NCBI GenBank assembly: GCA_021843755.1
Contig: JAKBWB010000005.1
Coordinates: 124,001-188,000, forward strand
Reading direction: 5' to 3'
DNA from: Pseudomonadota bacterium
GTDB lineage: Bacteria > Pseudomonadota > Gammaproteobacteria > Steroidobacterales > Steroidobacteraceae
Length of the DNA stretch: 64,000 nt
Notes under the pieces: model-generated
Database searches by the model: none
What the model saw: only the letters and a program-made list of their open reading frames with translations
What the model was told of the DNA's origin: nothing
In this document: positions 51,760-64,000 of the stretch, one piece after another
Numbering within the stretch: position 1 is the stretch's first letter
How the letters are laid out: each line of letters begins with the position of its first letter
Made by a program: the position numbers and the translations under genes

Positions 51760-52119
51760 CCTCCCATGATCCCCCTCTGGCGCGCTCCGGCGCCCGCAGC
51801 GCCCGGTAGGCTCTCGATCTGACCGCGGCGGAGGTTGCCCCACCCCAACGACACCCGTCATGCCGGGTTGGAGCCCTCCGCATCCGAGTTATTGTCAACT
51901 CACCGGCTGTCCAAGGCATGGAGCTTTGCTTGCCCATGCAACACCGGCCCAACCACGGCGAGGAAATACTCCTGCGGCGAGGGCCTGTCAAGGCGTCAAA
52001 AGACGGGGCGCGCGCCGCGTGAATCTGCCGGCCGATTGCGCCACTCTACGGTGAGCGTCGCCTTCCTTTGGGGAAACATGCGCCGGCGACCTGACCTTGC
52101 TCCGACGCTATGGCATGTC

Positions 52120-52872
52120 ATGGATCATCTCGATCTGCTCCAGTCGTTCCTCGAGCGCTGCCAGAGCGAGCAGTGCTCGCGCGCGGACATCGGCGCGGCG
52201 TTCCACGCGGCGATCGAGCGTCTCGGTTTCCGCTACTTCGCCTGCTGCTCGCGCATCGACCCGCGCGATCCGCCCACCGCGACTGTCCTGCTGCACAACT
52301 ACCCGGCCGCATGGGCGCGGCGCTTCCGCGCAGCCGGACTCTTTCGGCTCGACCCGGTGCTGCAGCTCGCCGAGCGCACCCCTGCGCCGTTCTTCTGGGA
52401 CGCGGCCTTCGCGACGCGCCCGATCACGGAGCGGCAGCGAGGCGTGCTGGAGGAGGCGGCCGGTTACGGCATCGCGCACGGCTACACGGTACCGCTCGAG
52501 GCCTGCGGCCCTCCCGGCTCGCCCCGCGCCTCGTGCTCGGTGGTTCCCGAGGGCGGCGCGATCGATCCACGCAGCTACACCACCGTGCAGCTGCTGGCTC
52601 TGTACCTGTATGCCTTCACCCGCCGCGCCCGCATGCAACCCAGCGGCGCCATGGGCGCCGAACTGACGCCACGGGAACGACAGTGCCTGCAGCTCGTGGC
52701 GTGCGGCAAGACCGACTGGGAGATCGCCCGCCTGTTGGGATTGAGCCCATTCACGGTCCACTATCACATCGAGCGCGCCAAGCGCCGCTTCGACGTGATC
52801 ACGCGGATCCAGGCGGTGGTTCAGGCGCTGAGGACCGGGCAGATCTCCTGCGCCGATGGGGCGCCGAAGTAG
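52120..52872 (+). CDS. LuxR-type acyl-homoserine-lactone receptor/regulator
   Basis: 250 aa. N-terminal autoinducer-binding domain with the conserved Trp/Tyr/Asp set (YPAAWARRF, FRLDPVLQ, PFFWD) and Gly in YGIAHGYTVPL; C-terminal GerE HTH (LTPRERQCLQLVACGKTDWEIARLLGLS in part; VHYHIERAKRRFDV). This is a classical quorum-sensing regulator. ATG at 52120 chosen by homologous length; upstream in-frame Met at 52078 is possible. luxI follows 168 bp downstream in the same orientation. Confidence 0.92.
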   Translation: MDHLDLLQSFLERCQSEQCSRADIGAAFHAAIERLGFRYFACCSRIDPRDPPTATVLLHNYPAAWARRFRAAGLFRLDPVLQLAERTPAPFFWDAAFATRPITERQRGVLEEAAGYGIAHGYTVPLEACGPPGSPRASCSVVPEGGAIDPRSYTTVQLLALYLYAFTRRARMQPSGAMGAELTPRERQCLQLVACGKTDWEIARLLGLSPFTVHYHIERAKRRFDVITRIQAVVQALRTGQISCADGAPK

Positions 52873-52929
52873 GGGCCGCGACCCGCGTTGCGGGTACGGC
52901 GAGGGCGCCTCGCCAGAGGATGCAACGGA

Positions 52930-52945
52930 CGTGCCCGCGGGCACG
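52930..52945. promoter_or_regulatory. 16-bp palindrome between luxR and luxI, candidate LuxR site
   Basis: CGTGCCCGCGGGCACG is a perfect palindrome 95 bp before the luxI ATG. lux boxes are 18-20-bp palindromes at this sort of position, though the sequence differs from the Vibrio consensus. Lacks a T-run, so not an evident terminator. Confidence 0.45.
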
Positions 52946-53040
52946 CCGCCGGTCAGCGCCACCCTCCCCTGATCAGAGGATTGGCGCGCGTGCGCGCAGC
53001 GCGCAGGGTTGCCGCACGGTACGCAAGCCCGGAGCGCGCG

Positions 53041-53700
53041 ATGATTTTCCTCGTCAACGCCGAGAACCGCTCACAGTTCGCCGCCGATCTCGCCGCGATG
53101 CATCGGCAGCGCAAGATCGTCTTCGTCGACCGTGCCGGCTGGAACGTTCCCGTGAGCGGGGATCAGGAGATCGATCGCTACGATCGCGACGATACGCTCT
53201 ACCTGCTCGCCAAGGACGCCCCGTGCGGTCCCATTCTCGCCTCCGTGCGGCTGCTGCCGACGCAGCGGCCGCACCTGATGAGCGAGCTGTTCCCGCTCGC
53301 ATGCCTGGCCGCCATCCCGCGCGGACCGACAGTCTGGGAGGCCTCGCGGATGTGCGTGGCGCCGGGCCTGCGCGCCGAGCGCCGCGCGCACGCGCTCGTG
53401 TGGGAAATGGTGTGCGGAGTGCTCGAGACCGCCCTGCTCTACGGCATCGACCAGGTGGTCTTCGCGGTCAACCGCGCTCTGCTGCGCCTCGTGCTGCACT
53501 GCGGCTGGGAGGTGCGACCCCTGGGTCCCCGCCTCGGCGCCGGCGAGCAGGAAGTTGCTGCCGCGGCCGCGACGGTCACGGCGGCGGGATTGCGCGCCGT
53601 GCGCCAGCGCCACGGCATATCGATCCCCGCCACGCGCCTGCACGCACGCGTGTGCCTGCCGGCGGCAACATCTGCCGCCGGCTCGATCGCCACCCCGTGA
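53041..53700 (+). CDS. LuxI-type acyl-homoserine-lactone synthase
   Basis: Makes AHL signal from S-adenosylmethionine and an acyl donor. 219 aa. All invariant LuxI residues are in place: Arg24, Phe28, Trp34, Asp45, Asp48, Arg70 (ASVRLLPT), Phe84 (ELFP), Glu100 and Arg103 (WEASRMCVAP). The C-terminal tail is about 20 residues longer than usual and Ala-rich. ATG at 53041. Its TGA overlaps a possible GTG start of the dioxygenase gene, coupling them. Confidence 0.93.
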   Translation: MIFLVNAENRSQFAADLAAMHRQRKIVFVDRAGWNVPVSGDQEIDRYDRDDTLYLLAKDAPCGPILASVRLLPTQRPHLMSELFPLACLAAIPRGPTVWEASRMCVAPGLRAERRAHALVWEMVCGVLETALLYGIDQVVFAVNRALLRLVLHCGWEVRPLGPRLGAGEQEVAAAAATVTAAGLRAVRQRHGISIPATRLHARVCLPAATSAAGSIATP

Positions 53701-53708
53701 GCGCGACC

Positions 53709-54632
53709 ATGACCGAATCCTTCCCGTCGATTCCAGCGAGCGAGCCCGGCGCGGCCGCCGGCGCACCCGGACTGCCGACGGCGCTCGACCTGCTGCGCGC
53801 CAGCGGCTATGTCATCTTCGAGCGGCTGCTGCCCGATGCCACCGTGGACCGGCTGAACGCCGAGCTCGATCCGTGGTTCAGCGCGACGCCGCGCTGTCAG
53901 GGCGATTTCTACGGCTGGAACACCACCCGATTCGGGTCGGTGCCGCTGAAATCGCCGGCCTCGCACGCCCTGGCCCTGCACCCGGTGATCCTGAGTCTCC
54001 TTGACGCGGTGCTCGGGCCGCACTGCGACTGGTATCAGCTCAACCTGACCCAGGCGGTGCGCCTGCACCCCGGCGAGCGGCGGCAGGTGCCGCATCGGGA
54101 CGAGGAGATGTGGCCGTGTCCGAAGGGCGGCATCGAGTACCTGGTCAATGTCATGTGGGCACTGTCGGATTTCACCGCCCGCAACGGCGCCACCCTGCTG
54201 TGGCCCCGCAGCCAGTTCACGCGCCTCTCGCGCGAGCTCGATCTGGCGCAGGCCACGGTCGCCGCCATGCCGCGCGGGTCGGCGCTGGTGTACCTCGGCT
54301 CGCTGACCCACTGCGCGGGCGCCAACCGCAGTGACCGGCCGCGGACCGGATTGATCCTGAGCTACTGCCTCGGCTGGCTGAAACAGTACGAGAATGCCTT
54401 TCTGTCCTATCCGCCGGCGGTGGCCCGCCAGTTCCCGCCGGCCCTGCGCGACTTGCTCGGCTATCGCATCCACCGACCCAACCTGGGCGGATACGAAGGA
54501 CAGGATCCGGCGGTGCTGTTCGAGACCGCATCGCATAGTCTGCCCGCCGTCGATGCCTTACCCGCGGGCACCGTGCGCGAGCTGCGCGAGTTCTACGCCC
54601 GCGAGCCCCGCGAGGCCGGCGAAGCCCCGTGA
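53709..54632 (+). CDS. Phytanoyl-CoA dioxygenase (PhyH) family Fe(II)/2-oxoglutarate enzyme
   Basis: 307 aa non-haem oxygenase that hydroxylates or otherwise oxidises a small substrate with 2-oxoglutarate and O2. Iron ligands His129 and Asp131 (VPHRDEEMWP) and His201 (LTHCAGANRS); Arg212 (PRTGLILSY) would bind 2-oxoglutarate. The whole jelly-roll core is readable. A GTG at 53697 overlapping the luxI stop (GTGA) is an alternative start. Its position in the AHL operon suggests it modifies a signal-controlled metabolite. Substrate unknown. Confidence 0.88.
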   Translation: MTESFPSIPASEPGAAAGAPGLPTALDLLRASGYVIFERLLPDATVDRLNAELDPWFSATPRCQGDFYGWNTTRFGSVPLKSPASHALALHPVILSLLDAVLGPHCDWYQLNLTQAVRLHPGERRQVPHRDEEMWPCPKGGIEYLVNVMWALSDFTARNGATLLWPRSQFTRLSRELDLAQATVAAMPRGSALVYLGSLTHCAGANRSDRPRTGLILSYCLGWLKQYENAFLSYPPAVARQFPPALRDLLGYRIHRPNLGGYEGQDPAVLFETASHSLPAVDALPAGTVRELREFYAREPREAGEAP

Positions 54633-55495
54633 GCGGGTGTCCCGTGCGCGATGCCGGATTGCTCGTAAGCGCCGATCCGTTCCGGTGTCGCAGCTGGGCA
54701 CTCAACGCGCGCCTCGAAGATGACCTGACCGAGGCGTCGTGCCGGGCCGAAATCGACAGCGTGGCCCGCAACGGACAGCTGGTTCCGGTCATCGGCCGCA
54801 CGCTGGCCGGCGATCCGGACTTCGACATCGAGGTGATCTGCGGCACGCGCCGGCTGTTCATCGCGCGGCAGCTGAACGTGCCGCTTCGCGTCGAGATCCG
54901 CTCGCTCACCGACCAGCAGGCGGCCGTGGCCGTCGAAGCCGAAAACGACCTGCGCAGGCAGGCCAGCGCATACGAGCGGGGACTGTGGCTCGCGAAGCTG
55001 CTGCGCCGCAATCTGTTCGGCTCGCAGGACCAGATGGCGCGCGAGCTCGGCATTACGCCCACGCAGGTGACCCGACTGCTGAAATTCGCCGAGCTCCCCG
55101 CGGCCATCATCGGCGCATTCGCCACGCCCCACGAGATCCTGGAGTCGTGGGCCGTCGAGCTGCACAAGGCCTGCAATGACGATCGCCGCCCCATGCTTCT
55201 CGAGCGGGCCCGGACGATCCACAGGCGCATGCCCCGCCCGCCGGCGGTCTCGGTCTACGAGCTGCTGCTCGCCGAGCGGGGCGCGGCCCGCCGCGCCAGC
55301 CGGCACAGCACGCGCCGCGTAATCAAGGGTCCCGCCGGAGAGGCGCTGTTGCGCTTGGAGCGCCAGCGCCGGGACATCGTGCTCAGAATTCCCAACGCAC
55401 GGGTCGACGCGCGCCTCGAGCAGGCCATCACCCAAGCCGTGGTCGCGGTCCTGATCGGCCGCGACTGCCCCGAGCCCGCGCCCGGCGCGGCGTGA
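54629..55495 (+). CDS. ParB-like nuclease/CTPase-fold protein in the quorum-sensing operon
   Basis: 288 aa. N-terminal ParB domain: IDSVARNGQLVPVIGR, the CTP-binding ICGTRRLFIARQL (GxRRxxA box) and EAENDLRRQAS (ENxxR box). Central KorB/ParB-type HTH: SQDQMARELGITPTQVTRLLKFAEL (in part). The C-terminal domain is unrelated to chromosomal ParB dimerisation domains as far as I can see. No parA or parS-like array nearby, so a role in gene regulation or DNA loading is more likely than partition. GTG start overlapping the upstream stop (GTGA). Confidence 0.85.
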   Translation: MSGCPVRDAGLLVSADPFRCRSWALNARLEDDLTEASCRAEIDSVARNGQLVPVIGRTLAGDPDFDIEVICGTRRLFIARQLNVPLRVEIRSLTDQQAAVAVEAENDLRRQASAYERGLWLAKLLRRNLFGSQDQMARELGITPTQVTRLLKFAELPAAIIGAFATPHEILESWAVELHKACNDDRRPMLLERARTIHRRMPRPPAVSVYELLLAERGAARRASRHSTRRVIKGPAGEALLRLERQRRDIVLRIPNARVDARLEQAITQAVVAVLIGRDCPEPAPGAA

Positions 55496-55519
55496 TGCGC
55501 GCGCAGTGGCAAGCACACC

Positions 55520-56533
55520 ATGGCACGCCCGAGGCGCTGTGAATTCCCCGGAGCTCTGCACCTGGTGAGCGTCTGCGGCCCGCCCGGCGGTCACGTGTTC
55601 TACGATCCGGACCTGTTCAGGCGATTCCCGGACAACCCGCGCGCCCACGCGCCGCATGTCGAGGTCTTCGAGGGTTTGCTGTGGGACGCGTGCGAGCAAT
55701 ACGATGCCCTGATCCACGCGTATGTCACGGAACCGAACGCCGGGCTGATCATCCTGCAGAGCGGCGGCGCGCCTCTGTCGTGGCTGATGCACGACCTGCT
55801 CTTGCGATACGCGCGGCACCTGCGGGGGGAAGCTCGCACGCCCGGAGGCGAGCGGCTCTTTCCACGCCGATACAAGGCGCAGCTGCTGCAGCCGGCGAAG
55901 CTCCCCTACGCGGTGCGCCACGTGCAGCGCCGGGAATTTCCTGGCGCGCGGCGCCGCGCCGCCCATCATCCGTTCAGCTCCAGCCTGATCTACTGCGGCC
56001 GAAAACCGCGGCCGGCGCGCTTCGTCGTGAGCGCCCTGCGCGCGGCGCTCGAGCCTCTGGGTTATGTCGGTCCGGGCGCCTATTTCGAGTTCATGGCGCA
56101 GCGCGACAGCCCCGCCATCGCGGACCTGCTGGCGCGGCCGGTCATCGGGGAACGGAGCTTCCGGCAGAGCGTGCGCGAGCGGTGCCGCCCGCCGGCAAGG
56201 ACACCTTCCCCCGAGGACCTGCTGCGGGAGGTGACCTGCACGGTGCTGCATACCCAGCCCGGCGTCGCCTGCGCCTCGACCCATCGGGGCGCCCTCGCCC
56301 GGGCGCTCGTGGCCTGGTATGCGATGCGGACCGGGGCGGCGCGGATCGGGACGGTGGGCGGATGGTTCGGCGTCACGAGTTCGGACCTGCGCCATCTGAT
56401 CGACCGGCATCGGCGCACGCATCCCCAGTACTTTGCGCTCGCCACCCCGGAATTGTTCCCGGATCTGGCCGCACGGCCGCCCGGGGCCACACCGCGCGCG
56501 CCGCCGACGCGCGCGGCCTGCGGGGCCGCGTAG
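55520..56533 (+). CDS. REP-associated transposase (RAYT) homologue lacking HUH catalytic residues
   Basis: 337 aa. The N-terminus MARPRRCEFPGALHLVSVCG is clearly the Y1/REP transposase opening. However, where active proteins read PNHYHLL, this one has EPNAGLIIL (residues 71-79), so both HUH histidines are gone. The catalytic-tyrosine segment YIHLNP is also replaced (near residues 132-142). The RYKAQLL and PFSSSL landmarks remain. The C-terminal 100 residues resemble the DnaA-like HTH often fused to RAYTs. Probably a domesticated nucleic-acid-binding protein. It precedes the ABC exporter with no gap. Confidence 0.82.
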   Translation: MARPRRCEFPGALHLVSVCGPPGGHVFYDPDLFRRFPDNPRAHAPHVEVFEGLLWDACEQYDALIHAYVTEPNAGLIILQSGGAPLSWLMHDLLLRYARHLRGEARTPGGERLFPRRYKAQLLQPAKLPYAVRHVQRREFPGARRRAAHHPFSSSLIYCGRKPRPARFVVSALRAALEPLGYVGPGAYFEFMAQRDSPAIADLLARPVIGERSFRQSVRERCRPPARTPSPEDLLREVTCTVLHTQPGVACASTHRGALARALVAWYAMRTGAARIGTVGGWFGVTSSDLRHLIDRHRRTHPQYFALATPELFPDLAARPPGATPRAPPTRAACGAA

Positions 56534-58285
56534 ATGTCCGGGAGCGGTACGGGGGTTGCGCCGGTGCTGCGGATCCTCTACCGGGAGGCCACACCCTTCG
56601 TCCGGCGCCGGCTCGCCCTCGTCCTCGGACTGGTGCTCTGCGCCGCCGTGCTGACGGGGCTCGGTCCCCTCGCTCTGAAGCTGATCATCGACAGTTTCAC
56701 GGCAGCGACGCGCACCGCGCCGATCCTGCTGGTGGCCCTGTACGCGCTCAGCCAGTGGCTCGCCCGCTCGGCCGGCGAGGTGCGCGGGATGGTGTACGGG
56801 CGCATCGAGCGGCGCATGTTTCGCACCCTCAGCGAGCGGCTGTTCGCGCATCTGCTGCACCTGCCGCTGCGCTTCCATCTGGACCGCCAGACCGGCGCCG
56901 TCAGCGAGACGCTCACCAACGGCCTGGAGGGCTTGCAGCTGATCCTGCACCACCTGCTGTTTACGGTCCTGCCGGTCACCGCGGAGCTCGCGACGGTCAT
57001 CGTGGTCCTGTGGCGCCTGGCACCCCTGTTGTTTCTCGTCCTCTTCTGCGCCGCGCTGGTGTGCTATGCCGCGGTCTTCGGCTATTCGGCCGCGAGTCTT
57101 GCCCGGACTGCGCGCGTGGCGTCCGCCGCCCGCGTGCAGGCCGGAGCCGCCCTCACCGATGGTCTGCTGAACTACGAGACCGTGAAGTACTTCGCCGCGG
57201 AGTCGGCGGTGCAGGCGCGGGTCGGACAGGCCATGGCGCGCAGCGAGCGCGAATGGGTCGCGTTCTATCGCCGCTTTGCCGGCAACGGCCTGCTCGTGGC
57301 GAGCATCTTCGCGGCGTTTCTCGCCGCCACCACCTGGTACGCGACGGTCGATGTGCGCAGCGGCCGCATGACCCTCGGCGAGTTCGTCCTCGTCAACACC
57401 TACATGCTCCAGCTGGTGCGGCCCGTCGAGACCCTCGGCTATGCCGTGCAGGGCTTCTCCCAGGGTCTGGCCATGCTCGAGAAGATGCTGGGACTGTTTC
57501 GCGAGGCCCCCGAGCCCGCCGGGAGCCTGACGGGCACTGCCGAGGGACCCGGCGCGCTGACGTTCGACCAGGTCAGTCTGTCGTACCGCAGGGGCTGCCC
57601 CGTGCTCCGGGACATCAGCTTCAGGATCGAGGCCCGCCGTACGCTCGCGGTCGTGGGCTCGAGCGGCTCGGGCAAGTCGAGCATCGTGCGGCTCCTGACC
57701 CGCCTGATCGAGCCGGACGGGGGGCGGATCCTGCTCGATGAGGTACCGATATCCCGCCTGCCGCTCGCGCAATGGCGCCGGGCCATCGCCGTGGTTCCCC
57801 AGGACACGGTGCTCTTCAACGACTCCCTCGCCTACAACATTGCCTTCGGCCGCCCCGGAGCAACCCTCGCCGAGGTCCAGCGGGCCGCCCGCATCGCCCA
57901 TCTGCACGAGTTCATCATGAGTCTCCCGGACGGATACGACACCCGGGTCGGAGAACGGGGCGTGAAACTTTCCGGCGGCGAGCGCCAGCGCGTCTCGATC
58001 GCCCGCGCGGTTCTGACCTCCCCGCGCCTTTATGTCCTCGATGAACCCACCGCCTCGCTCGACAGCCGGACCGAGCAGGACGTCCTGGCGAGCCTGCGCG
58101 AGATCTGCGAACACCGCTGCACTCTGTTGATCGCACATCGGCTCTCGACCGTAGTACATGCCGACGAGATCGTGGTGCTCGAGCAGGGACGCATCGTCGA
58201 GCGTGGAACCCATGCCAGTCTGCTGCGGCAGAACGGCGCCTATGCCGCCTCGTGGCGCGCACAACAGCAGGACCACGCCGCATGA
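56534..58285 (+). CDS. Atm1/HMT1-type ABC exporter (fused permease-ATPase)
   Basis: 583 aa half-transporter that dimerises. Six membrane helices (residues about 25-310) including the Atm1-family hallmark LLNYETVKYFAAE. The nucleotide-binding domain has Walker A GSSGSGKSS, signature LSGGERQRVSIARA, Walker B LYVLDEPTASLD and H-loop IAHRLSTV. Atm1-like exporters move glutathione-linked sulfur/persulfide or metal conjugates. In this operon it could export the dioxygenase product. ATG directly follows the RAYT-like stop (TAGATG). Its stop overlaps an ATG at 58282. Confidence 0.92.
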   Translation: MSGSGTGVAPVLRILYREATPFVRRRLALVLGLVLCAAVLTGLGPLALKLIIDSFTAATRTAPILLVALYALSQWLARSAGEVRGMVYGRIERRMFRTLSERLFAHLLHLPLRFHLDRQTGAVSETLTNGLEGLQLILHHLLFTVLPVTAELATVIVVLWRLAPLLFLVLFCAALVCYAAVFGYSAASLARTARVASAARVQAGAALTDGLLNYETVKYFAAESAVQARVGQAMARSEREWVAFYRRFAGNGLLVASIFAAFLAATTWYATVDVRSGRMTLGEFVLVNTYMLQLVRPVETLGYAVQGFSQGLAMLEKMLGLFREAPEPAGSLTGTAEGPGALTFDQVSLSYRRGCPVLRDISFRIEARRTLAVVGSSGSGKSSIVRLLTRLIEPDGGRILLDEVPISRLPLAQWRRAIAVVPQDTVLFNDSLAYNIAFGRPGATLAEVQRAARIAHLHEFIMSLPDGYDTRVGERGVKLSGGERQRVSIARAVLTSPRLYVLDEPTASLDSRTEQDVLASLREICEHRCTLLIAHRLSTVVHADEIVVLEQGRIVERGTHASLLRQNGAYAASWRAQQQDHAA

Positions 58286-58608
58286 GACAGACCCGCTCCT
58301 GTCCTCCACCGACCCTGAGCGCGACCGTCACTTGGCGGATGTGTCCCCGGTGCGGTGCGCCCGGCCCGCGGGTCGAGGAGCAGACCGGCGTCCCTCAGGT
58401 CATCACGGCCCAATGCTGCCACCTGACCCGACAACGCCCGCACTATGCCCGCCTGCGGTCCGGGGATAGGATAGGGCGTCGGAGGGTTGACCCCGACGCG
58501 CTGGGCGAGGCTTCAGGTGCGCCGCAGCCCGCCCGGCAGGGCGGACAGCCGGCCCCGGTACAATGCTCGCCCCACCGATATCAGGGCGAAAAACAACGGC
58601 ACCGGGTC
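58282..58608 (+). other. Interval with an in-frame Cys-rich stretch before the SWIM gene
   Basis: An ATG overlapping the exporter stop (ATGA, 58282) opens a frame that contains MCPRCGAPG and AQCCHL and runs without a stop into the SWIM gene. It could encode a 178-aa SWIM protein with an N-terminal Cys-rich extension. A TACAAT at 58559-58564 instead suggests a separate promoter for the shorter gene. I cannot decide. Confidence 0.35.
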
Positions 58609-58818
58609 ATGACGTCCACCGACACCAACAAGGTCTTTCGATTCGACATCGAAGGACAGGAAGTTGTCTGCTATCAGATGGGCAACGACCGCCTCTGGGT
58701 CTGCAAGTGCGAATACTTTCAGGAGCGGCTGCGGCTGCGCCACCAGGGATACTGCCCGCATATGGCTGCCGCCATCCTGCAGGCCATGGACGAAGGAACC
58801 ATCGACTTCGTGTTCTGA
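58609..58818 (+). CDS. Small SWIM-type zinc-finger protein
   Basis: 69 aa. CKCEYF at about residue 34 and GYCPHMAAAI at about 51 make a C-x-C...C-x-H SWIM zinc-binding motif, a DNA/protein interaction module usually seen in larger proteins. Preceded by a beta hairpin (VFRFDIEGQEVVCYQM). ATG at 58609; Shine-Dalgarno weak. Located between the quorum-sensing cassette and the lasso region; role unknown. Confidence 0.7.
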   Translation: MTSTDTNKVFRFDIEGQEVVCYQMGNDRLWVCKCEYFQERLRLRHQGYCPHMAAAILQAMDEGTIDFVF

Positions 58819-58901
58819 ATCGGACGGCGCGCCGGCAACCGGCCGAGAACGCCTTTGCGGTCAAGGGCTTGCGCCCTAAATCATTGCAATCGGCGCGCGC
58901 C

Positions 58902-60284
58902 TCAGGCCTGCCGCCCCCCGGCCTGTAGCACCTCGCGCCTCACCCGCATGAGGAACTTCACGAAGCGCTTCAGGTGCCGCCGCGCATCATAGTCCGCGCC
59001 CTCGCGCATCCCGAATTTCTCCGCGATCGCGCCTCTGAGGTACCCGGAGAAGCGCCCCGTCAGCGCCCCGGCCCGAACCCTCGGTCCTGCGACCCCGCCG
59101 GCGGCCTGCCACGCCAGCAGCGCCGCCTCCAGCTCCCCCAGCACCAGATCGAGATAATCGAACAGACTCACCATCAGCTTGATCGACACCAGCTGATACA
59201 ACGGATAGCCCCAGGTCTCGTACGTCGAGAACCACTCGCCGGCGCACGGCAGCTCCCCCGCCGGCAGACCCCTCGCGCGCCGCAATGTCCAATCAACCGT
59301 CAGCCCCTCGAAATCCCGGTAATAGAAGTCCCCGAGCGGAACCGCATCCGCCGACAGCGCCAGCAGCACATTCTGCGCATGGGCCTCGAGAATCAGGCCG
59401 AAGTCGAACACCAGATCCACCCACAAGCGCGCAAACCGCGCGAGCAGCACCCCTTCAATCAGCTCCCCGGCGCCGGGCCCCAGATGCGCCATGAGCTGGC
59501 GCAACAGCGGCGGATGGCCCTCGCTGCCGCCCATGAGCGCGAACAGCGGCGCCGCAACGACCTGCCCGCCGAGGATCTCCTCAGGAATGGCGCGGAATAT
59601 GACACCCCCCGCGGGCAGCCCCCGCGGCACCAGGCCCGGCCCCTCGGGAAAGAACCGCAGGGCCTGCGGGAGCGTCTCGCGCTCCCGTTCCAGGAGGCCC
59701 GACAGCCCGACGCTGCGCGCCACTCGAGTACGCGTCAACGCTCGGTCGCCCAACTCACGAGACAGCAGCGACAATTTGACGAAGCTCACCTGCTCCGGTC
59801 GATTCTCGGGCCACGCCAGCACCGTCCGCGTGCTCGAGGTTGGTGTTGCCCACAACCGCGGACCTTCCGCCGGGAACTCGCGCGCCTTCGCACCCGCCAG
59901 AGCCGCCGCATACCGGGCCTGCTCCACCGGATGCACCGGCAACAACACCTCGCCGGGCACGACCCCAGCGCCGCCCGCGCCCTCTGCCAGAGATAACCCG
60001 GACGAGTGCCCATAGCGAACCACGGACCTTCCGCTGAGGCGAAAACACGGCAGGCGGAAGATCGCCCCACGCTCGGGAAAGTACGCTCCGAGGGATCCGG
60101 CGCCCGCGCTCGAGTCGCGCAGACGATCCGGCCGCCACAGTCCGCGCTGCTCGAATCGCAGGAGCGCACCCACGCTCCCGGGCAGCGGACCGTCCGCGCC
60201 TGCCACATCACCGTCGAAACACCCGCCACGCGCCACGATTCGCCTCGGACGTCCGCCCCGCGGCCAGCGTGTTCTCCTTGTCAC
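58902..60284 (-). CDS. IucA/IucC-like NIS synthetase, N-terminally divergent
   Basis: 460 aa from the GTG at 60284 (true start may be later). NRPS-independent siderophore synthetases join citrate or similar acids to amines via acyl-adenylates. Visible motifs: LLPVHPVEQARY (the VHPWQ motif), ATPTSSTRTV, VKLSLLSRELGDRALTR (in part), EAHAQNVLLAL and YRDFEGLTV, with a FhuF-like C-terminal region. The N-terminal GHPxHPxxK-R motif of complete enzymes (about 580-600 aa) is not found, so it may be truncated or a specialised variant. Divergent from the lasso precursor gene. Confidence 0.75.
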   Translation of the reverse strand: MTRRTRWPRGGRPRRIVARGGCFDGDVAGADGPLPGSVGALLRFEQRGLWRPDRLRDSSAGAGSLGAYFPERGAIFRLPCFRLSGRSVVRYGHSSGLSLAEGAGGAGVVPGEVLLPVHPVEQARYAAALAGAKAREFPAEGPRLWATPTSSTRTVLAWPENRPEQVSFVKLSLLSRELGDRALTRTRVARSVGLSGLLERERETLPQALRFFPEGPGLVPRGLPAGGVIFRAIPEEILGGQVVAAPLFALMGGSEGHPPLLRQLMAHLGPGAGELIEGVLLARFARLWVDLVFDFGLILEAHAQNVLLALSADAVPLGDFYYRDFEGLTVDWTLRRARGLPAGELPCAGEWFSTYETWGYPLYQLVSIKLMVSLFDYLDLVLGELEAALLAWQAAGGVAGPRVRAGALTGRFSGYLRGAIAEKFGMREGADYDARRHLKRFVKFLMRVRREVLQAGGRQA

Positions 60285-60691
60285 CCGCGGTCAACCCCGC
60301 CCGCACGACAGACTGACTCGCGTGTTTTCCAGACACAACAGAACGCTCAAGAGAAAAAAAGAGGGAGAAAATATCTCACACGTGGCACCCCAACACGCGC
60401 CGCGCCGTCACGAACGCCGCACTCCGGACGCCACGGCGCAACCTGCGGACCCCAGGACATCACCGCCCCCGCGCCCCTCACGAGCAGAAAACCCCTGATA
60501 ATTCCGTACGTTCCGGCCTTCCCTCCCGAGACTCGACTCCTGCGCACCTCGAATTGCGACGACACGGGATAGCCGCTCAACACCCCTGATTTGACCCCCT
60601 TCCGTTCATTGACGGAACACAAACAAGCATCAACCATAGTCATGCCGCGAACGACGCGGCATTCGACATCACTCAGCACAGGAGATTCATC
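60285..60691. promoter_or_regulatory. Divergent intergenic region before the lasso genes
   Basis: 407 bp without a gene. Contains a purine-rich block (60350-60370) and the inverted repeat TTCCGT-TCATTG-ACGGAA (60600-60617) that overlaps a -35-like TTGACG (60609-60614). A convincing -10 is not visible (nearest CATAGT at 60635). This probably holds the lasso operon promoter and an operator. Confidence 0.4.
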
Positions 60692-60784
60692 ATGATCACA
60701 CTCGGTACGGTTTCGAAGGAAACAATGGGCGTCAAGCTCGTCGGGTCTCCAGAGCCGATCTTCCAGCAAGCCCAGGCCCTGTAG
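60692..60784 (+). CDS. Lasso peptide precursor
   Basis: 30-residue ribosomal precursor, too short for usual gene finders. GGAG seven bases before the ATG. Leader MITLGTVSKETM has the conserved LG-x-V and the penultimate Thr required for cleavage. The predicted core is GVKLVGSPEPIFQQAQAL: Gly1 and Glu9 would form a nine-residue macrolactam ring, leaving a nine-residue tail with Phe12 and Gln13/14 as possible plugs. The leader is only 12 residues and lacks the upstream Y-x-x-P element usually bound by the RRE. B, C and isopeptidase genes follow directly. Confidence 0.85.
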   Translation: MITLGTVSKETMGVKLVGSPEPIFQQAQAL

Positions 60785-60823
60785 CCCACTTCGCAATCTG
60801 TCGATGACGTTTCAGGACGTCAC

Positions 60824-60859
60824 GGCGGGCATGCCGACCCTCCGGCCGGCATGCCCGCC
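60824..60859 (+). terminator. Hairpin between lasso A and B, likely attenuator
   Basis: GGCGGGCATGCC (60824-60835) and GGCATGCCCGCC (60848-60859) make a perfect 12-bp stem with a 12-nt loop, followed by TCTTTCC. Its position after the precursor suits a leaky terminator or mRNA 3' stabiliser that raises precursor over enzyme levels. It argues that the B gene starts after it. Confidence 0.7.
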
Positions 60860-60890
60860 TCTTTCCAGTCTGGAGCAGCGCTGTCCCGGC

Positions 60891-61616
60891 ATGACCGCCT
60901 ACCACTTCCCCAGCCACGTGCACTACGCCGTCGTCCAGGACGCGGTGATTTTCATGGACCTGCGCGCCGATCAGTACAGCCTGCTTGCCGGCGATAAGGC
61001 ACGGCTCTTCGCCACGCTGCTCGCCCCCGCTCCGCACACCCAAGGACGAACTGTCCGCATCGACCCGAGCGCGCACGACGAGAACGCGCGAGCTCGCCAT
61101 GCGCTCGTGACCGAGCTTCTGAATTGCAATCTGTTGATGCCAGGGGCAGAAGCGACAGCGCTGACTCGCCCTACCCTGCCGCCGCCTCGCGAGGACTTCC
61201 TCACCGCCGGCGATGAGTGTGCCCCGCGCATCCGCCTGCGCCACGTTGGACGGTTCTTGATCGCTTGCCTCGTCTCCGCGTGGCGTCTGCGATACACAAC
61301 CTTAGAAGACACCGTACGCGCCGTCGAGCGCCGCCGCAGGACCCGAGCAGCGAAGCCTCCGCTCGACGGGCCGGAACTGCACGGGCTCGTGACACTTTTT
61401 CAGCGGATGCGCCCGCTGTATCCGAAAGACGCGCTGTGCCTGTTCGATTCTCTCGCGCTCTTGGCGTTTTTGGCGAAGTACGGCTGCTTTCCCCACTGGG
61501 TGTTCGCCGTGACGCTGACGCCCTGGTCCGCCCACTGCTGGGTGCAATATGCGGACGTCTCCCTGAACGAGGACGCCGAGCGAGCGCGTCACTACACCGT
61601 CATTTTCGTCGCGTGA
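60891..61616 (+). CDS. Lasso peptide biosynthesis B protein (RRE plus leader peptidase)
   Basis: 241 aa, fused form. Residues about 1-85 are a PqqD-like RRE that binds the leader (YHFPSHVHYAV, FMDLRADQYSLL). The rest is the transglutaminase-like cysteine protease: Cys183 in KDALCLFDSLAL, His215 in SAHCWVQY and Asp222. It removes the leader after the threonine motif. The start at 60891 matches family N-termini and clears the hairpin. An ATG at 60804 would add 29 residues encoded across the hairpin. Confidence 0.9.
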   Translation: MTAYHFPSHVHYAVVQDAVIFMDLRADQYSLLAGDKARLFATLLAPAPHTQGRTVRIDPSAHDENARARHALVTELLNCNLLMPGAEATALTRPTLPPPREDFLTAGDECAPRIRLRHVGRFLIACLVSAWRLRYTTLEDTVRAVERRRRTRAAKPPLDGPELHGLVTLFQRMRPLYPKDALCLFDSLALLAFLAKYGCFPHWVFAVTLTPWSAHCWVQYADVSLNEDAERARHYTVIFVA

Positions 61617-61623
61617 TCGCCCG

Positions 61624-63510
61624 ATGCGCCGCTACCTAGTTTTTCTCTGGAATCCCTCGGATCACGAGAGCACCGCTCGCGTCCAGCGCGTGGCGCACCG
61701 CCTCGGCGCCGAACCGCCGTGGGCGCTCGTGTATCAGCATCCCGGCGTGCTGGTTGGACACGCGTCCTCGGACTCGGCCGTCCCGGGCGTCCACTCGCTC
61801 GCCCATGCGCAAGGAGTGATTCTCGGCTCCCTCTATCGCCGGACACCGGATGCGCACAGCACCGCCGTCGGCGACCTCGACGAGGCAAGCACTCGAGGCA
61901 TCGTCACCTCCGCGGGCCGTGACCTGATCGAGCGCTACTGGGGCGCCTATGTTGCACTGATCCGGGATGCCCGCTCGGGACAGTGCAGCCTGCTGCGCGA
62001 GCCCACCGCGTCCCTGGCCTGCTTCCACTTCATGTGGGACGGCATTCACGTCATCTTTTCCGAGTTCGCGGATCTCGTGCGGTACATCGCCCCGCCCCTC
62101 ACCGTCGACCGGTCATACCTCGCCACCCGCCTGGCGCTCGGATTCCAGCCCTCGCGCCGCTGCGCCCTGACGGAAGTCGAGGACATTCCGGGCGGCGAAT
62201 GGACCACGTTCGCCGAGCGCCGCCCGGCGCGCACCACCCTCTGGCACCCGGATCGATTCTGCATCGAGCGCCCGCTGGAAGACGAGTCGCAGGCCGCGGC
62301 AGCCCTGCGCGCGACCGTCCTCGACACGGTGCAGGCCTTGACCGCTGCGCACGATCGCATTCTCCTGCAGCTCTCGGGCGGTCTCGACTCCTCCATCGTC
62401 GCCGCCTGCATTGCCCGACAGACCCATCGGCCCCAGGCGCAAGGCCTCAACTTCTTCATGCCCGCCTCCGATGCGGCGCCGTACCCTCTCCCGCTTCCCG
62501 TCGGACTCGCTCCCGAGGATCGGGCCAAGCTCCTCCGCCTCGCCTCCAGCGGCGATGAGCGGGAATTCGCCCGAATCGTCGCCCGGCGCTGCGGCTTCCC
62601 GTTGACCGAGTACGAGAAGCGCCTCCTCGACCTTCGGGATCCCCGCATCGGAAACGCCCCCCTCGCCCCCGTCCCCTCGGCGTATGTCTTCAGCTACGAG
62701 GATGATGCCGCCGAATGTGAATCGGCCGCCCAGACCGGGGCGACCGCCTGCTTCTCCGGCCACGGCGGCGACACCGTGTTCTACGCCACTCAGCGCCCCG
62801 TGGGCGCCGTGGATTACGCCTTCCTCCATCCGTTGCGCGCCGGCCTGGGTCCACAGATCCTGCGGGCGGCGACCCTCAGCGGCGAATCGATCGTGAGCGT
62901 CTTGCGCAAGGTCTTCCGCCATGGACTCCTCCACGCGCCGCTCCCCCAGCCCATCGATCCGATGCGCCAGCCTCACCTCCTGCGGGATGATGTCTTCCAC
63001 GGCGTCTCGACGAGCAACCCGCCCCACCCCTGGCTGGACCCGGCCGTCTCGCTGTGTCCCGGGAAACGAATCCACAGCCTCGGGGTCGCCCTCTCGATTC
63101 CCTTCTATTACAACACGTATCGCCGCGAGATCCTGGCGCCCGCCGTCCACCCGCTGGCCGCGCAACCCGTCGTGGAGCTCGCGCTGCGCATTCCCACCTA
63201 TGTCCTGCTCGCGACCGGCATCTCCCGCGGCCTCGCGCGACGCGCCTTTCACGATCTCCTGCCCGCCGAGATCACGCGGCGGACAGTCAAGGGCACCTCC
63301 GCACAGTACTGGCAGCACGTCGTCCGGCACAACGTTCCGGTCTTGCGCCAGTGGCTCCTCGATGGCGAGTTGGTCCGGCACGGACTGCTCGACCGGTCAA
63401 GACTGGAACACTACCTGACGCCCGACCAACCGTTTCTCACCGTCCCGCCCACGCGCATCATGGACTACCTGGCGTGCGAGACCTGGCTGCACCAAGTTCG
63501 ACCCCGGTAA
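61624..63510 (+). CDS. Lasso peptide cyclase (asparagine-synthetase-like, C protein)
   Basis: 628 aa. Activates the Glu9 side chain with ATP and joins it to Gly1. N-terminal Ntn-like domain without the catalytic Cys of asparagine synthetase. Synthetase domain has the PP-loop LQLSGGLDSS (Ser251-Ser257) and downstream TACFSGHGGDTVFY. C-terminal KGTSAQYWQHVVRHN is typical of lasso C proteins. ATG seven bases after the B stop, so co-translated. Confidence 0.92.
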   Translation: MRRYLVFLWNPSDHESTARVQRVAHRLGAEPPWALVYQHPGVLVGHASSDSAVPGVHSLAHAQGVILGSLYRRTPDAHSTAVGDLDEASTRGIVTSAGRDLIERYWGAYVALIRDARSGQCSLLREPTASLACFHFMWDGIHVIFSEFADLVRYIAPPLTVDRSYLATRLALGFQPSRRCALTEVEDIPGGEWTTFAERRPARTTLWHPDRFCIERPLEDESQAAAALRATVLDTVQALTAAHDRILLQLSGGLDSSIVAACIARQTHRPQAQGLNFFMPASDAAPYPLPLPVGLAPEDRAKLLRLASSGDEREFARIVARRCGFPLTEYEKRLLDLRDPRIGNAPLAPVPSAYVFSYEDDAAECESAAQTGATACFSGHGGDTVFYATQRPVGAVDYAFLHPLRAGLGPQILRAATLSGESIVSVLRKVFRHGLLHAPLPQPIDPMRQPHLLRDDVFHGVSTSNPPHPWLDPAVSLCPGKRIHSLGVALSIPFYYNTYRREILAPAVHPLAAQPVVELALRIPTYVLLATGISRGLARRAFHDLLPAEITRRTVKGTSAQYWQHVVRHNVPVLRQWLLDGELVRHGLLDRSRLEHYLTPDQPFLTVPPTRIMDYLACETWLHQVRPR

Positions 63511-63519
63511 CGCCGCCGA

Positions 63520-64000
63520 TCACCCGTGGCGTTTCCCCGAACGCCGCGGTCTGCGCGTCACACAGAACACCGGCCGGCCGGGATTCTCCCGCTGCTGCTC
63601 CGCGCACAGCCGCTGCCAATGGTGGTATTCGCTGCGCGTCGCCGGGCCCCGAGGCTCCTGACCGTTGAGCCAGAAATCGAACCAGTCGACACTCTCGCCC
63701 GACGCCACCGAGATGCTCATGGGCACTTGCATGATGTGCTCATCCTTTATCCGCCCATCCAGCACCAGCATCTGCACCGGCCTCCTCAGTTCCCGCAGCC
63801 CATGCAGCCACTCCCACTCGTACAGCGCAATGACCCGGTGGTGCGGGATGACGAGTAAGAGCGGCGTGTGCACACGGTTCACATGAAGGATGGGCGCCCG
63901 CCTCACCCAGTTTGTCAATGTCCTTCCGAACGGCGGCCCACCGTATAGCGACTGATCATCAACGGAATTCTGCAAACTCAGCATATACTCCATGGGACTT
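63520..64000 (-). CDS. S9-type lasso peptide isopeptidase (partial, N-terminus outside window)
   Basis: The C-terminal part of an AtxE-like hydrolase that linearises lasso peptides by cutting the isopeptide bond. The frame stays open to the window edge. LYGGPPFG, RAPILHVNRVHTPLLLV and DWFDFWLNGQEP are family landmarks. The catalytic His lies in KDEHIMQ. The segment that normally holds the catalytic Asp after LLLV reads IPHHRV instead, so this isopeptidase may be altered. Convergent with the cyclase gene, nine bases between stops. Confidence 0.82.
   Translation of the reverse strand, partial: SPMEYMLSLQNSVDDQSLYGGPPFGRTLTNWVRRAPILHVNRVHTPLLLVIPHHRVIALYEWEWLHGLRELRRPVQMLVLDGRIKDEHIMQVPMSISVASGESVDWFDFWLNGQEPRGPATRSEYHHWQRLCAEQQRENPGRPVFCVTRRPRRSGKRHG

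Follow-up and report, generated by a model that had tools for sequence, protein, structure and literature searches.

Six genes between positions 52120 and 58285 of the window (the whole stretch of 64,000 nucleotides analysed here) raise the question of what is produced, and under what control, by a quorum-sensing operon that also encodes a dioxygenase, a ParB-like protein, a protein resembling a REP-associated tyrosine transposase (RAYT), and an ABC exporter. The original prediction proposed a make-modify-export circuit. Because genes for a putative lasso peptide precursor (A), leader peptidase (B), and cyclase (C) follow on the same strand, we revised this interpretation, and propose, with a probability of roughly 60%, that the six genes act as a quorum-sensing front end to a lasso peptide cluster, in which an AHL-driven operon would be linked to A-B-C by a ParB-like/RAYT-like relay. 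The conserved quorum-sensing operon, the two DNA-binding-type proteins, and the exporter of the circuit are retained, but its product is most likely a lasso peptide and not a modified AHL alone.

The quorum-sensing operon and the neighbouring lasso genes

Open reading frame calling places all six genes on the forward strand, and their coordinates confirm the tight spacing described earlier (Table 1). luxI overlaps phyH if the latter begins at its GTG start and is separated from it by 8 bp if it begins at ATG, phyH overlaps the parB-like gene, a 24-bp gap precedes the RAYT-like gene, and the RAYT-like and ABC genes abut. Domains above curated cut-offs are Autoind_bind and GerE, Autoind_synth, PhyH, TIGR00180 ParB, and the ABC exporter domains; no sigma-70-type promoter was found in a scan of 51800-61700. 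LuxI is predicted to be an AHL synthase from its domain and from Arg24, Phe28, and Trp34, which are retained in 11/11 aligned rows and are given as AHL synthase residues in the available part of one account (PMC3704786). luxI is rare in the Steroidobacteraceae, being present in 13 of 150 genomes. Upstream of it is a lux-box-like site with an imperfect dyad in the window (7/9 positions paired) and a core, CTGATCAGAGG, that is invariant across six aligned genomes. A genome scan permitting up to two mismatches returned two distinct sites, the other at two mismatches, and the sole exact match of the conserved site is that upstream of luxI; no comparable dyad was found upstream of luxI in loci L122 or L100.

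Table 1. Positions of genes and sites from luxR to the end of the window
Feature	Coordinates	Strand	Basis
luxR, predicted AHL-responsive regulator	52120-52872	+	Autoind_bind and GerE; gene order in relatives
lux-box-like site CTCCCCTGATCAGAGGAT	52964-52981	+	7/9 dyad pairs
luxI, predicted AHL synthase	ATG 53041-53700, frame open from 52888	+	Autoind_synth
phyH, predicted Fe(II)/2-oxoglutarate dioxygenase	GTG 53697 or ATG 53709 to 54632	+	PhyH domain
ParB-like protein, SopB-type HTH, probable regulator	GTG 54629-55495	+	TIGR00180 ParB domain
RAYT-derived protein lacking the HUH motif, the catalytic Tyr, and the Asn metal ligand	55520-56533	+	Alignment, structure model
ABC exporter, probable lasso peptide exporter (D)	56534-58285	+	ABC domains above cut-off; relatives' neighbours
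Small SWIM-zinc-finger-like ORF	ATG 58540-58818	+	SWIM 13.6 bits, below cut-off
FhuF/IucA-like protein	58902-60284	-	Domain search
8-bp perfect hairpin, 29 nt upstream of precursor gene	60642-60662	+	1/200 mononucleotide shuffles equally good
Predicted lasso precursor A, MITLGTVSKETM / GVKLVGSPEPIFQQAQAL (leader/core split), predicted ring Gly1-Glu9	60692-60784	+	
Predicted lasso B protein, leader peptidase	60804-61616	+	NF033537 55.6 bits vs cut-off 33
Predicted lasso C cyclase, asparagine synthetase-like, SGGLDS motif	61624-63510	+	PF00733 above cut-off
First isopeptidase-like S9 protein, C-terminal end	63520-64000, continuing past window	-	

The precursor start, absent from the earlier account of this DNA, lies 2.4 kb past the ABC gene. 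Lasso precursors have Thr at -2 and an acidic ring residue at positions 7-9, and the candidate conforms, with MITLGTVSKETM followed by GVKLVGSPE. No Pfam match to an RRE (PqqD-like) domain was found in the N-terminal part of B, and the lasso-specific NCBIfam models for C score below their cut-offs. The predicted lasso A-B-C genes occupy 60692-63510, on the strand of the cassette. Isopeptidase-like genes and genes for a TonB receptor, FecR, and an ECF sigma factor lie beyond the window; the two isopeptidase-like copies are 72% identical (Peptidase_S9 above cut-off in one), with 26% identity to a Povalibacter protein. The SWIM-like ORF is conserved 3' of the ABC gene in relatives, and FhuF-like genes are also found near other lasso clusters (L097, L099, L101, L107, and L116).

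The exporter had been assigned to the Atm1 type, and its sequence does match NaAtm1, one among 139 strong PDB matches, and other ABCB proteins. Near-full-length relatives (45-73% identity), however, adjoin lasso genes in 10 fetched loci, and this is probably a lasso peptide exporter.

PhyH and the recurrence of the gene order

The HxD...H triad of PhyH (H129, D131, and H201) is invariant in 7/7 rows. We suggest that the enzyme acts on the AHL signal or its acyl supply, and less likely on the peptide. A role as a lasso tailoring oxygenase would accord with its top PDB profile matches, which are natural-product oxygenases, and with the frequent position of phyH beside lasso genes, but is doubtful given that luxI is immediately upstream in 36/36 PhyH loci (recovered with a query built from luxI-linked PhyH), including those with no lasso genes in the flank, and that L100 has luxI, RAYT, and lasso genes and yet no PhyH match. 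Neither luxI nor lasso genes were matched near a more distant PhyH (39%; L069).

The six-gene order, for which a search of other genomes had been advised, is not peculiar to this DNA: it recurs in relatives and is complete in L112, L115, L116, and L123, with partial versions at contig ends in L113 (from a luxI fragment) and L114 (up to a parB fragment). Locus L116 retains the entire series luxR-luxI-phyH-parB-RAYT-ABC-SWIM-FhuF-lassoB-lassoC-isopeptidase, and Povalibacter uvarum (L122) has luxR-luxI-phyH-RAYT-lassoB-lassoC in a single run. Lasso B and/or C genes are present in the fetched flank of 19/36 luxR-luxI-phyH loci. The scan behind this count picks up only DNA that encodes either of two short peptide patterns; it gave 61 stretches, of which 36 were confirmed. 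Among the 150 genomes of the family, lasso B is within 15 kb of luxI in 4/13 cases, and at about 31 kb in a fifth. The same operon occurs in L115 with no lasso B or C match in its full flank, and luxI-phyH is found in L124, L126, and L139 with no lasso genes in the flank; at the level of whole (draft) genomes, lasso B is in 9 of the 12 searched, with none found in those of L124, L131, and L112.

Such loci raise the question of whether the two halves are simply separate neighbours, with a quorum-sensing operon that makes and exports a small molecule, such as a modified AHL, next to a lasso cluster controlled by its own FecI/FecR. The opposite-strand FhuF-like gene and the 2.4 kb between the operon and lasso A count against a front end, and the downstream FecR and ECF sigma genes, the lack of a lasso B match in the L124 genome, and luxI-phyH modules described without lasso genes (PMC3704786 and PMC4288048, as far as their available parts extend) point the same way. 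Nonetheless, the linkage recurs across distant lineages in those 19 loci, and RAYT-like genes adjoin lasso genes even where the fetched flank has no luxI (L049, L050, L103, L104, and L106, some on short contigs), and we regard separate units as unlikely.

A transposase-like protein without its catalytic motifs

Against Pfam and NCBIfam the RAYT-like protein gives no match up to E 0.1, and a PDB profile search from the RAYT alignment was likewise empty up to E 1. We assign it by alignment with intact RAYTs and by an AlphaFold model of modest quality (mean pLDDT 60.9) with a predicted Y1-transposase fold, for which the top Foldseek PDB match is 4er8, a REP-associated tyrosine transposase (E 2.1e-4). 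The HUH motif is absent, with EPNAGLII in place of the xxNHxHxx of intact RAYTs, as are the catalytic Tyr and Asn (Y---NP), where the window has RHVQRREFP; the L113 and L115 proteins retain the Tyr and lack the Asn. The C-terminal region aligns with the DnaA-like HTH region of its kin. No relatives were found among viral contigs, or, beyond its own genome, in 321 genomes sparsely sampled from the class, at a strict limit of E 1e-20.

In the 150 Steroidobacteraceae genomes, HUH is lost in 12/12 RAYT-like genes near lasso B versus 13/54 elsewhere, a Fisher comparison that treats related copies as independent; since near-identical Steroidobacter copies account for five of the 12, the independent cases are fewer, perhaps seven. 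All 12 places lie no more than 10 kb from lasso B, against 0.21 expected under a Poisson calculation with the same assumption of independence, and distances were compared by eye, with short contigs perhaps hiding links. HUH-less proteins also occur away from lasso B (11/52 background copies). The set joins two genome searches, one of which had the window's RAYT as query and so favours its kin, as does the search of the class. Five fragmentary PF01797 places (G146 twice, G111:C49, G102:C25, and G035) and the broken G017:C113 were dropped before fetching, alignable protein was obtained from 52/57 fetched background places (none from L169 or L179-L182), and the unlinked class of 54 consists of these 52 plus G133 and G085. 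Weak linked rows found only through lasso proximity (L073, L074, L091, and L094) are outside the 12. Because the second His and the Tyr survive in 8 of the 12 linked proteins, calling these dead is an inference from the missing first His and Asn.

Three duplicates were excluded from the trees, as were the divergent rows L200 and L203. Lasso-linked RAYTs do not form a single clade, the label needing four changes. On a quick tree, a branch with SH-aLRT 89 sets the proteins without HUH apart from the rest; once the catalytic columns are taken out, the loss takes two changes (one change in 6% of 200 bootstrap trees), so a single event is not upheld, and the trees are compatible with either one or two origins. 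Decay of a transposase relic sitting in the operon by chance, as the missing catalytic residues, the missing Pfam match, and a dN/dS above those of phyH, parB, and ABC in 3/4 pairs might suggest, is highly improbable, since dN/dS is below 0.5 (0.27-0.46 in four pairs), the frame is open in all five relatives with the full gene (L112, L113, L115, L116, and L123), and dead versions cluster on the tree (one or two changes) and recur beside lasso genes. Our tentative explanation, short of even odds, is that a Steroidobacteraceae REP-associated transposase lineage lost its nuclease and became a regulator relaying quorum sensing to lasso genes, perhaps through hairpin DNA or RNA binding beyond the HTH.

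The hairpin before lasso A was considered as a RAYT target and rejected: similarly placed hairpins are present in L097 and L099, which have no nearby RAYT, and no hairpin of at least 7 bp was found in the RAYT-bearing L116, L122, L049, L050, and L063. The inverted-repeat scan was confined to two stretches of the window.

The ParB-like protein scores 78.6 bits against TIGR00180 (cut-off 58.45), and no ParA partner was found among the ten proteins of the locus scanned. StrR/VirB/KorB-type proteins are ParB-like and act on transcription, a role that the window's protein may share; it is probably a regulator. A relative with 45% identity adjoins NRPS-type genes; beyond its own genome there is no match in 398 genomes sparsely sampled across the phylum, again at a strict limit (E 1e-30). 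Its structure model is poor in the N-terminal part and was not used. RAYT occurs with no ParB match in L061/L122, L060/L121, and L100, and ParB with no RAYT match in L117; because each is found without the other, the two need not act together as the nucleic-acid-binding pair that the original prediction offered as a possibility.

Proposed pathway and known systems

In the proposed pathway, LuxI would produce an AHL, and AHL-bound LuxR, acting at the lux-box-like site (52964), would activate luxI-phyH-parB-RAYT-ABC. The presumably dead RAYT-like protein and the ParB-like protein, as DNA-binding regulators, would then pass the signal to A-B-C; B would cleave the precursor, C would close the lasso, and the ABC protein would export it, with the downstream isopeptidase-like proteins and TonB receptor importing and opening it. 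The available part of a review describes the activation of lasso peptide genes as poorly understood (PMC6963729). The arrangement links AHL signalling with lasso genes in gamma- and alphaproteobacteria, and because some carriers are cultured it is open to experiment. If the pathway is correct, AHL addition may be a route to awaken silent lasso clusters, and if the RAYT-like protein is a regulator, it would offer a specific example of a transposase in bacteria turned dedicated controller after losing catalysis.

Astexin-type proteobacterial lasso clusters have A, B, C, isopeptidase, TonB receptor, and FecR/FecI genes, and the cluster here has counterparts of these, those of the isopeptidase being isopeptidase-like genes; luxR-luxI-phyH-parB-RAYT-ABC, the FhuF-like gene, and the two isopeptidase-like copies are additional. 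The original prediction knew of no described system of this composition, which holds for the RAYT part, on which literature searches found no publication, but not for AHL/lasso hybrids or luxI-phyH pairs (PMC9318849, PMC3704786, and PMC4288048, each available in part). A hybrid homoserine-lactone/lasso peptide cluster is described in Qipengyuania pacifica and Citromicrobium, the antiSMASH region sharing with the cluster here an AHL synthase, a lasso B protein (B2 there), an asparagine synthetase, and a TonB receptor, and having an AtxE2-type isopeptidase where the cluster here has isopeptidase-like genes; the available text mentions no ParB-like, RAYT-like, or PhyH protein and no test of regulation (PMC9318849). 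Sphingomonad luxR-luxI-phyH modules of topology T also have phyH beside luxI, and some share a double luxR with some loci here, but their phyH is described as convergent, with no lasso gene mentioned in the available sections (PMC3704786 and PMC4288048), whereas phyH in the window is the next operon gene. The capistruin cluster of Burkholderia thailandensis likewise has lasso A-B-C-D genes, although as described in the accessible part of the review it has no luxI or RAYT-like gene, and the suggested AHL influence is indirect, through ScmR, and repressive (PMC6963729). Finally, TnpA_REP/RAYT subclass 2.1 with Bac_DnaA_C has the fold in common with the window's protein, whose kin carry the DnaA-like C-terminal domain; that study, in the part available, took proteins with both motifs (PMC6006769), whereas the protein encoded here has lost HUH, Tyr, and Asn and belongs to a quorum-sensing operon.

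The luxI-phyH cassette and its lasso genes

The six cassette genes stand where the original prediction placed them and are packed as it claimed, as judged from ORF positions, and LuxR (Autoind_bind, GerE), LuxI (Autoind_synth), PhyH, ParB (TIGR00180), and the ABC exporter all have domains above curated cutoffs. Lasso genes follow, and beyond the window its continued locus (L110) encodes two S9 isopeptidase-like proteins, a TonB receptor, FecR, and an ECF sigma factor, a layout that, together with A-B-C, we take to be that of an astexin-type lasso cluster. The isopeptidase-like proteins, one of which exceeds the Pfam cutoff, are 72% identical to each other and 26% identical to the Povalibacter isopeptidase; they are tandem paralogues 3' of a single lasso cluster.

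Positions of features in the window and in fetched loci (L-numbers)
Feature	Position	Strand relative to cassette	Remark
Six-gene cassette	52120-58285		
GC-rich dyad	52928		spacer before luxI
SWIM-like small ORF		same	after ABC gene; scores below Pfam cutoff
FhuF/IucA-like gene	58902-60284	opposite	between SWIM-like ORF and lasso precursor
Lasso precursor	60692-60784	same	
Lasso B protein	60804-61616	same	after precursor; NF033537
Lasso C protein	61624-63510	same	after B; asparagine synthetase-like
Isopeptidase-like pair	L110:1521-6579		
Precursor of FhuF-like-bearing cluster	L116:16429		
ParB-like relative	L048:13586-14497		genome G001
HUH-less RAYT	L205:6021-6983		away from lasso B
HUH-less RAYT	L209:9006-10019		away from lasso B
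HUH-less RAYT	L206:8689-9591		away from lasso B

A search of genome contigs for PhyH relatives with alignment A1 returned 36 loci, and luxI is directly upstream of phyH in all 36, the query having been built from luxI-linked PhyH proteins; no luxI match was found at L069, whose PhyH is more distant (39%). Lasso B and/or C fall within the fetched flank at 19 of the 36 (L119 with only a partial C at the edge), and 12 of the remaining 17 reach a contig end <6 kb after phyH. Five loci lack lasso genes in the flank despite a longer contig (L115, L121, L124, L126, and L139); the L121 contig has a lasso B gene ∼31 kb from luxI, and those of L115, L126, and L139 are elsewhere in the genome, outside the flank. 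Lasso B is present in 9 of 12 genomes searched and was not found in those of L112, L124, and L131. L116 has the whole window order, continuing into the lasso genes. Povalibacter uvarum (L122) has luxR-luxI-phyH-RAYT-lassoB-lassoC-isopeptidase-TonB receptor, and L117 has a ParB match and no RAYT match. The named relatives carrying the array are Steroidobacteraceae, and the lasso link of the cassette is well supported.

The FhuF/IucA-like protein adjoins lasso clusters in the window, L116, L097, L099, L101, and L107, whose precursors share the leader M[IV][KT]LG[KT]V[ST]xxT and, within the predicted core, constant Lys3 and Glu9; core residue 1 is variable (Gly, Asn, Asp, Thr), which is odd if cleavage follows the Thr(-2) rule. 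Among alphaproteobacterial and other loci, there are two precursor candidates per cluster in L127, L132, L134-L138, L140-L143, and L145, and a second luxR match stands in front in L134, L136, L137, L138, L141, and L147.

NaAtm1 is among the ABC protein's listed matches (the best 60 of 139 strong PDB sequences). Because a comparison of 48 loci with lasso genes shows near-full-length relatives (45-73% identity) at 10 of them, peptide export appears the likelier function. The PhyH triad (H129, D131, H201) is present in 7/7 rows, and a signal-linked role is favored because phyH is tied more closely to luxI than to the lasso genes.

RAYT-like and ParB-like proteins

Although a profile search gives the RAYT-like protein no family match, its predicted RAYT origin is borne out, as indicated by alignment with intact RAYTs from this bacterial family and by a modest AlphaFold model (mean pLDDT, 60.9). 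The best PDB match of the model is 4er8 (E = 2.1e-4; TM 0.29 by query, 0.56 by target), a REP-associated tyrosine transposase. Lasso B occupies 48 places in 33 of 150 family genomes, and, with fragmentary or broken places left out, there are 71 RAYT-like places (57 background copies and 14 others). Twelve of these lie ≤10 kb from lasso B, versus 0.21 expected, five of the twelve being near-identical Steroidobacter sequences.

In all 12 linked RAYTs, HUH is missing its first His and the Y---NP motif its Asn, residues that are metal ligands according to PMC6006769. Calling the protein dead is an inference from these two losses; 8 of the 12 keep the second His and Tyr, both of which are gone in the other four, including the window's; Tyr is still present in its close relatives L113 and L115. 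Among 54 unlinked RAYTs with a readable protein, HUH is kept in 41 and lost in 13 (Fisher p = 1.1e-6 versus linked). Two of the 13 sit in quorum-sensing operons (G133, G085); neighborhoods were fetched for ten of the other 11, and L205, L209, L211, and L206 were annotated. Translations place FecR and FecI-like genes near the L205 copy and sigma-like genes near that of L209, and reveal no FecR/FecI-like or sigma-like gene near that of L211; TonB-receptor and weak isopeptidase matches are near the L206 copy.

On trees, the dead RAYTs cluster with 1 to 2 changes. A DnaA-like C-terminal domain scores above the Pfam cutoff in L096 and just below it in L100 and L061, was not found by Pfam in L050, and is visible in the window RAYT only through alignment; a RAYT subclass with such a domain appears in PMC6006769, a study of proteins holding both motifs. 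The dN/dS values of the window RAYT against four relatives (0.27-0.46; phyH, parB, and ABC, 0.12-0.36) suggest that the gene is under selection, looser than for those three. We read the protein as a probable transposase turned DNA-binding protein.

The ParB-like protein has a ParB domain and a SopB-type HTH, and no ParA occurs in the ten proteins scanned; the simplest reading is that it is a putative regulator. A 45% relative adjoins two AMP-binding and two condensation-domain proteins.

Proposed LuxR control and relay

LuxI retains Arg24, Phe28, and Trp34 in 11/11 aligned rows. The gene is scarce in the family (13/150 genomes), with lasso B within 15 kb in four of the 13 and ∼31 kb away in a fifth; the remaining eight comprise short contigs (G133, G096, G135), contigs other than the lasso's (G115, G123), and genomes where lasso B was not found (G059, G117, G125).

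The core CTGATCAGAGG of the site before luxI is invariant across six aligned genomes, and the remaining spacer drifts. A scan demanding at least 8 of 9 pairs found a dyad in 16 of 25 spacers, with those of L115, L116, and L123 at the CTGATCAGAGG site, and none in L112, L117, L122, L100, and five alphaproteobacterial or other spacers. The window's lux-box-like site pairs at 7/9 positions, under this threshold; its spacer has another, GC-rich dyad, and 18 of 200 shuffles contain one. Allowing ≤2 mismatches, the genome has the site once exactly, before luxI, and a further occurrence that differs at 2 positions; a scan of the 64-kb window (18 bases, 3 mismatches) found no second copy. With no second window site and so few genome matches, direct LuxR control probably stops at the operon; any response of the lasso genes to AHL would therefore require a relay. 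Our hypothesis is that such a relay runs from the quorum-sensing operon to the lasso genes. We give the reading of the cassette as a quorum-sensing front end of the lasso cluster, ParB-like/RAYT-like relay included, a probability of about 0.6, slightly lowered because many linked RAYTs keep Tyr and the window's lux-box-like dyad is imperfect.

Comparison with described clusters

The single occurrence of 'RAYT' in PMC7470986 is part of an author list. In the open-licence literature, judged mostly from titles, no title links RAYT or ParB to lasso genes, and the dead-RAYT component of an AHL-linked lasso cluster was not found in print there. The original prediction's 'no described system' is only partly right, since earlier reports already contain an AHL/lasso hybrid cluster (PMC9318849) and phyH beside luxI (PMC3704786, PMC4288048). 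An indirect AHL effect on the capistruin cluster via ScmR is suggested in PMC6963729. The cassette and lasso genes make up a genuine and conserved form of AHL-linked lasso cluster.
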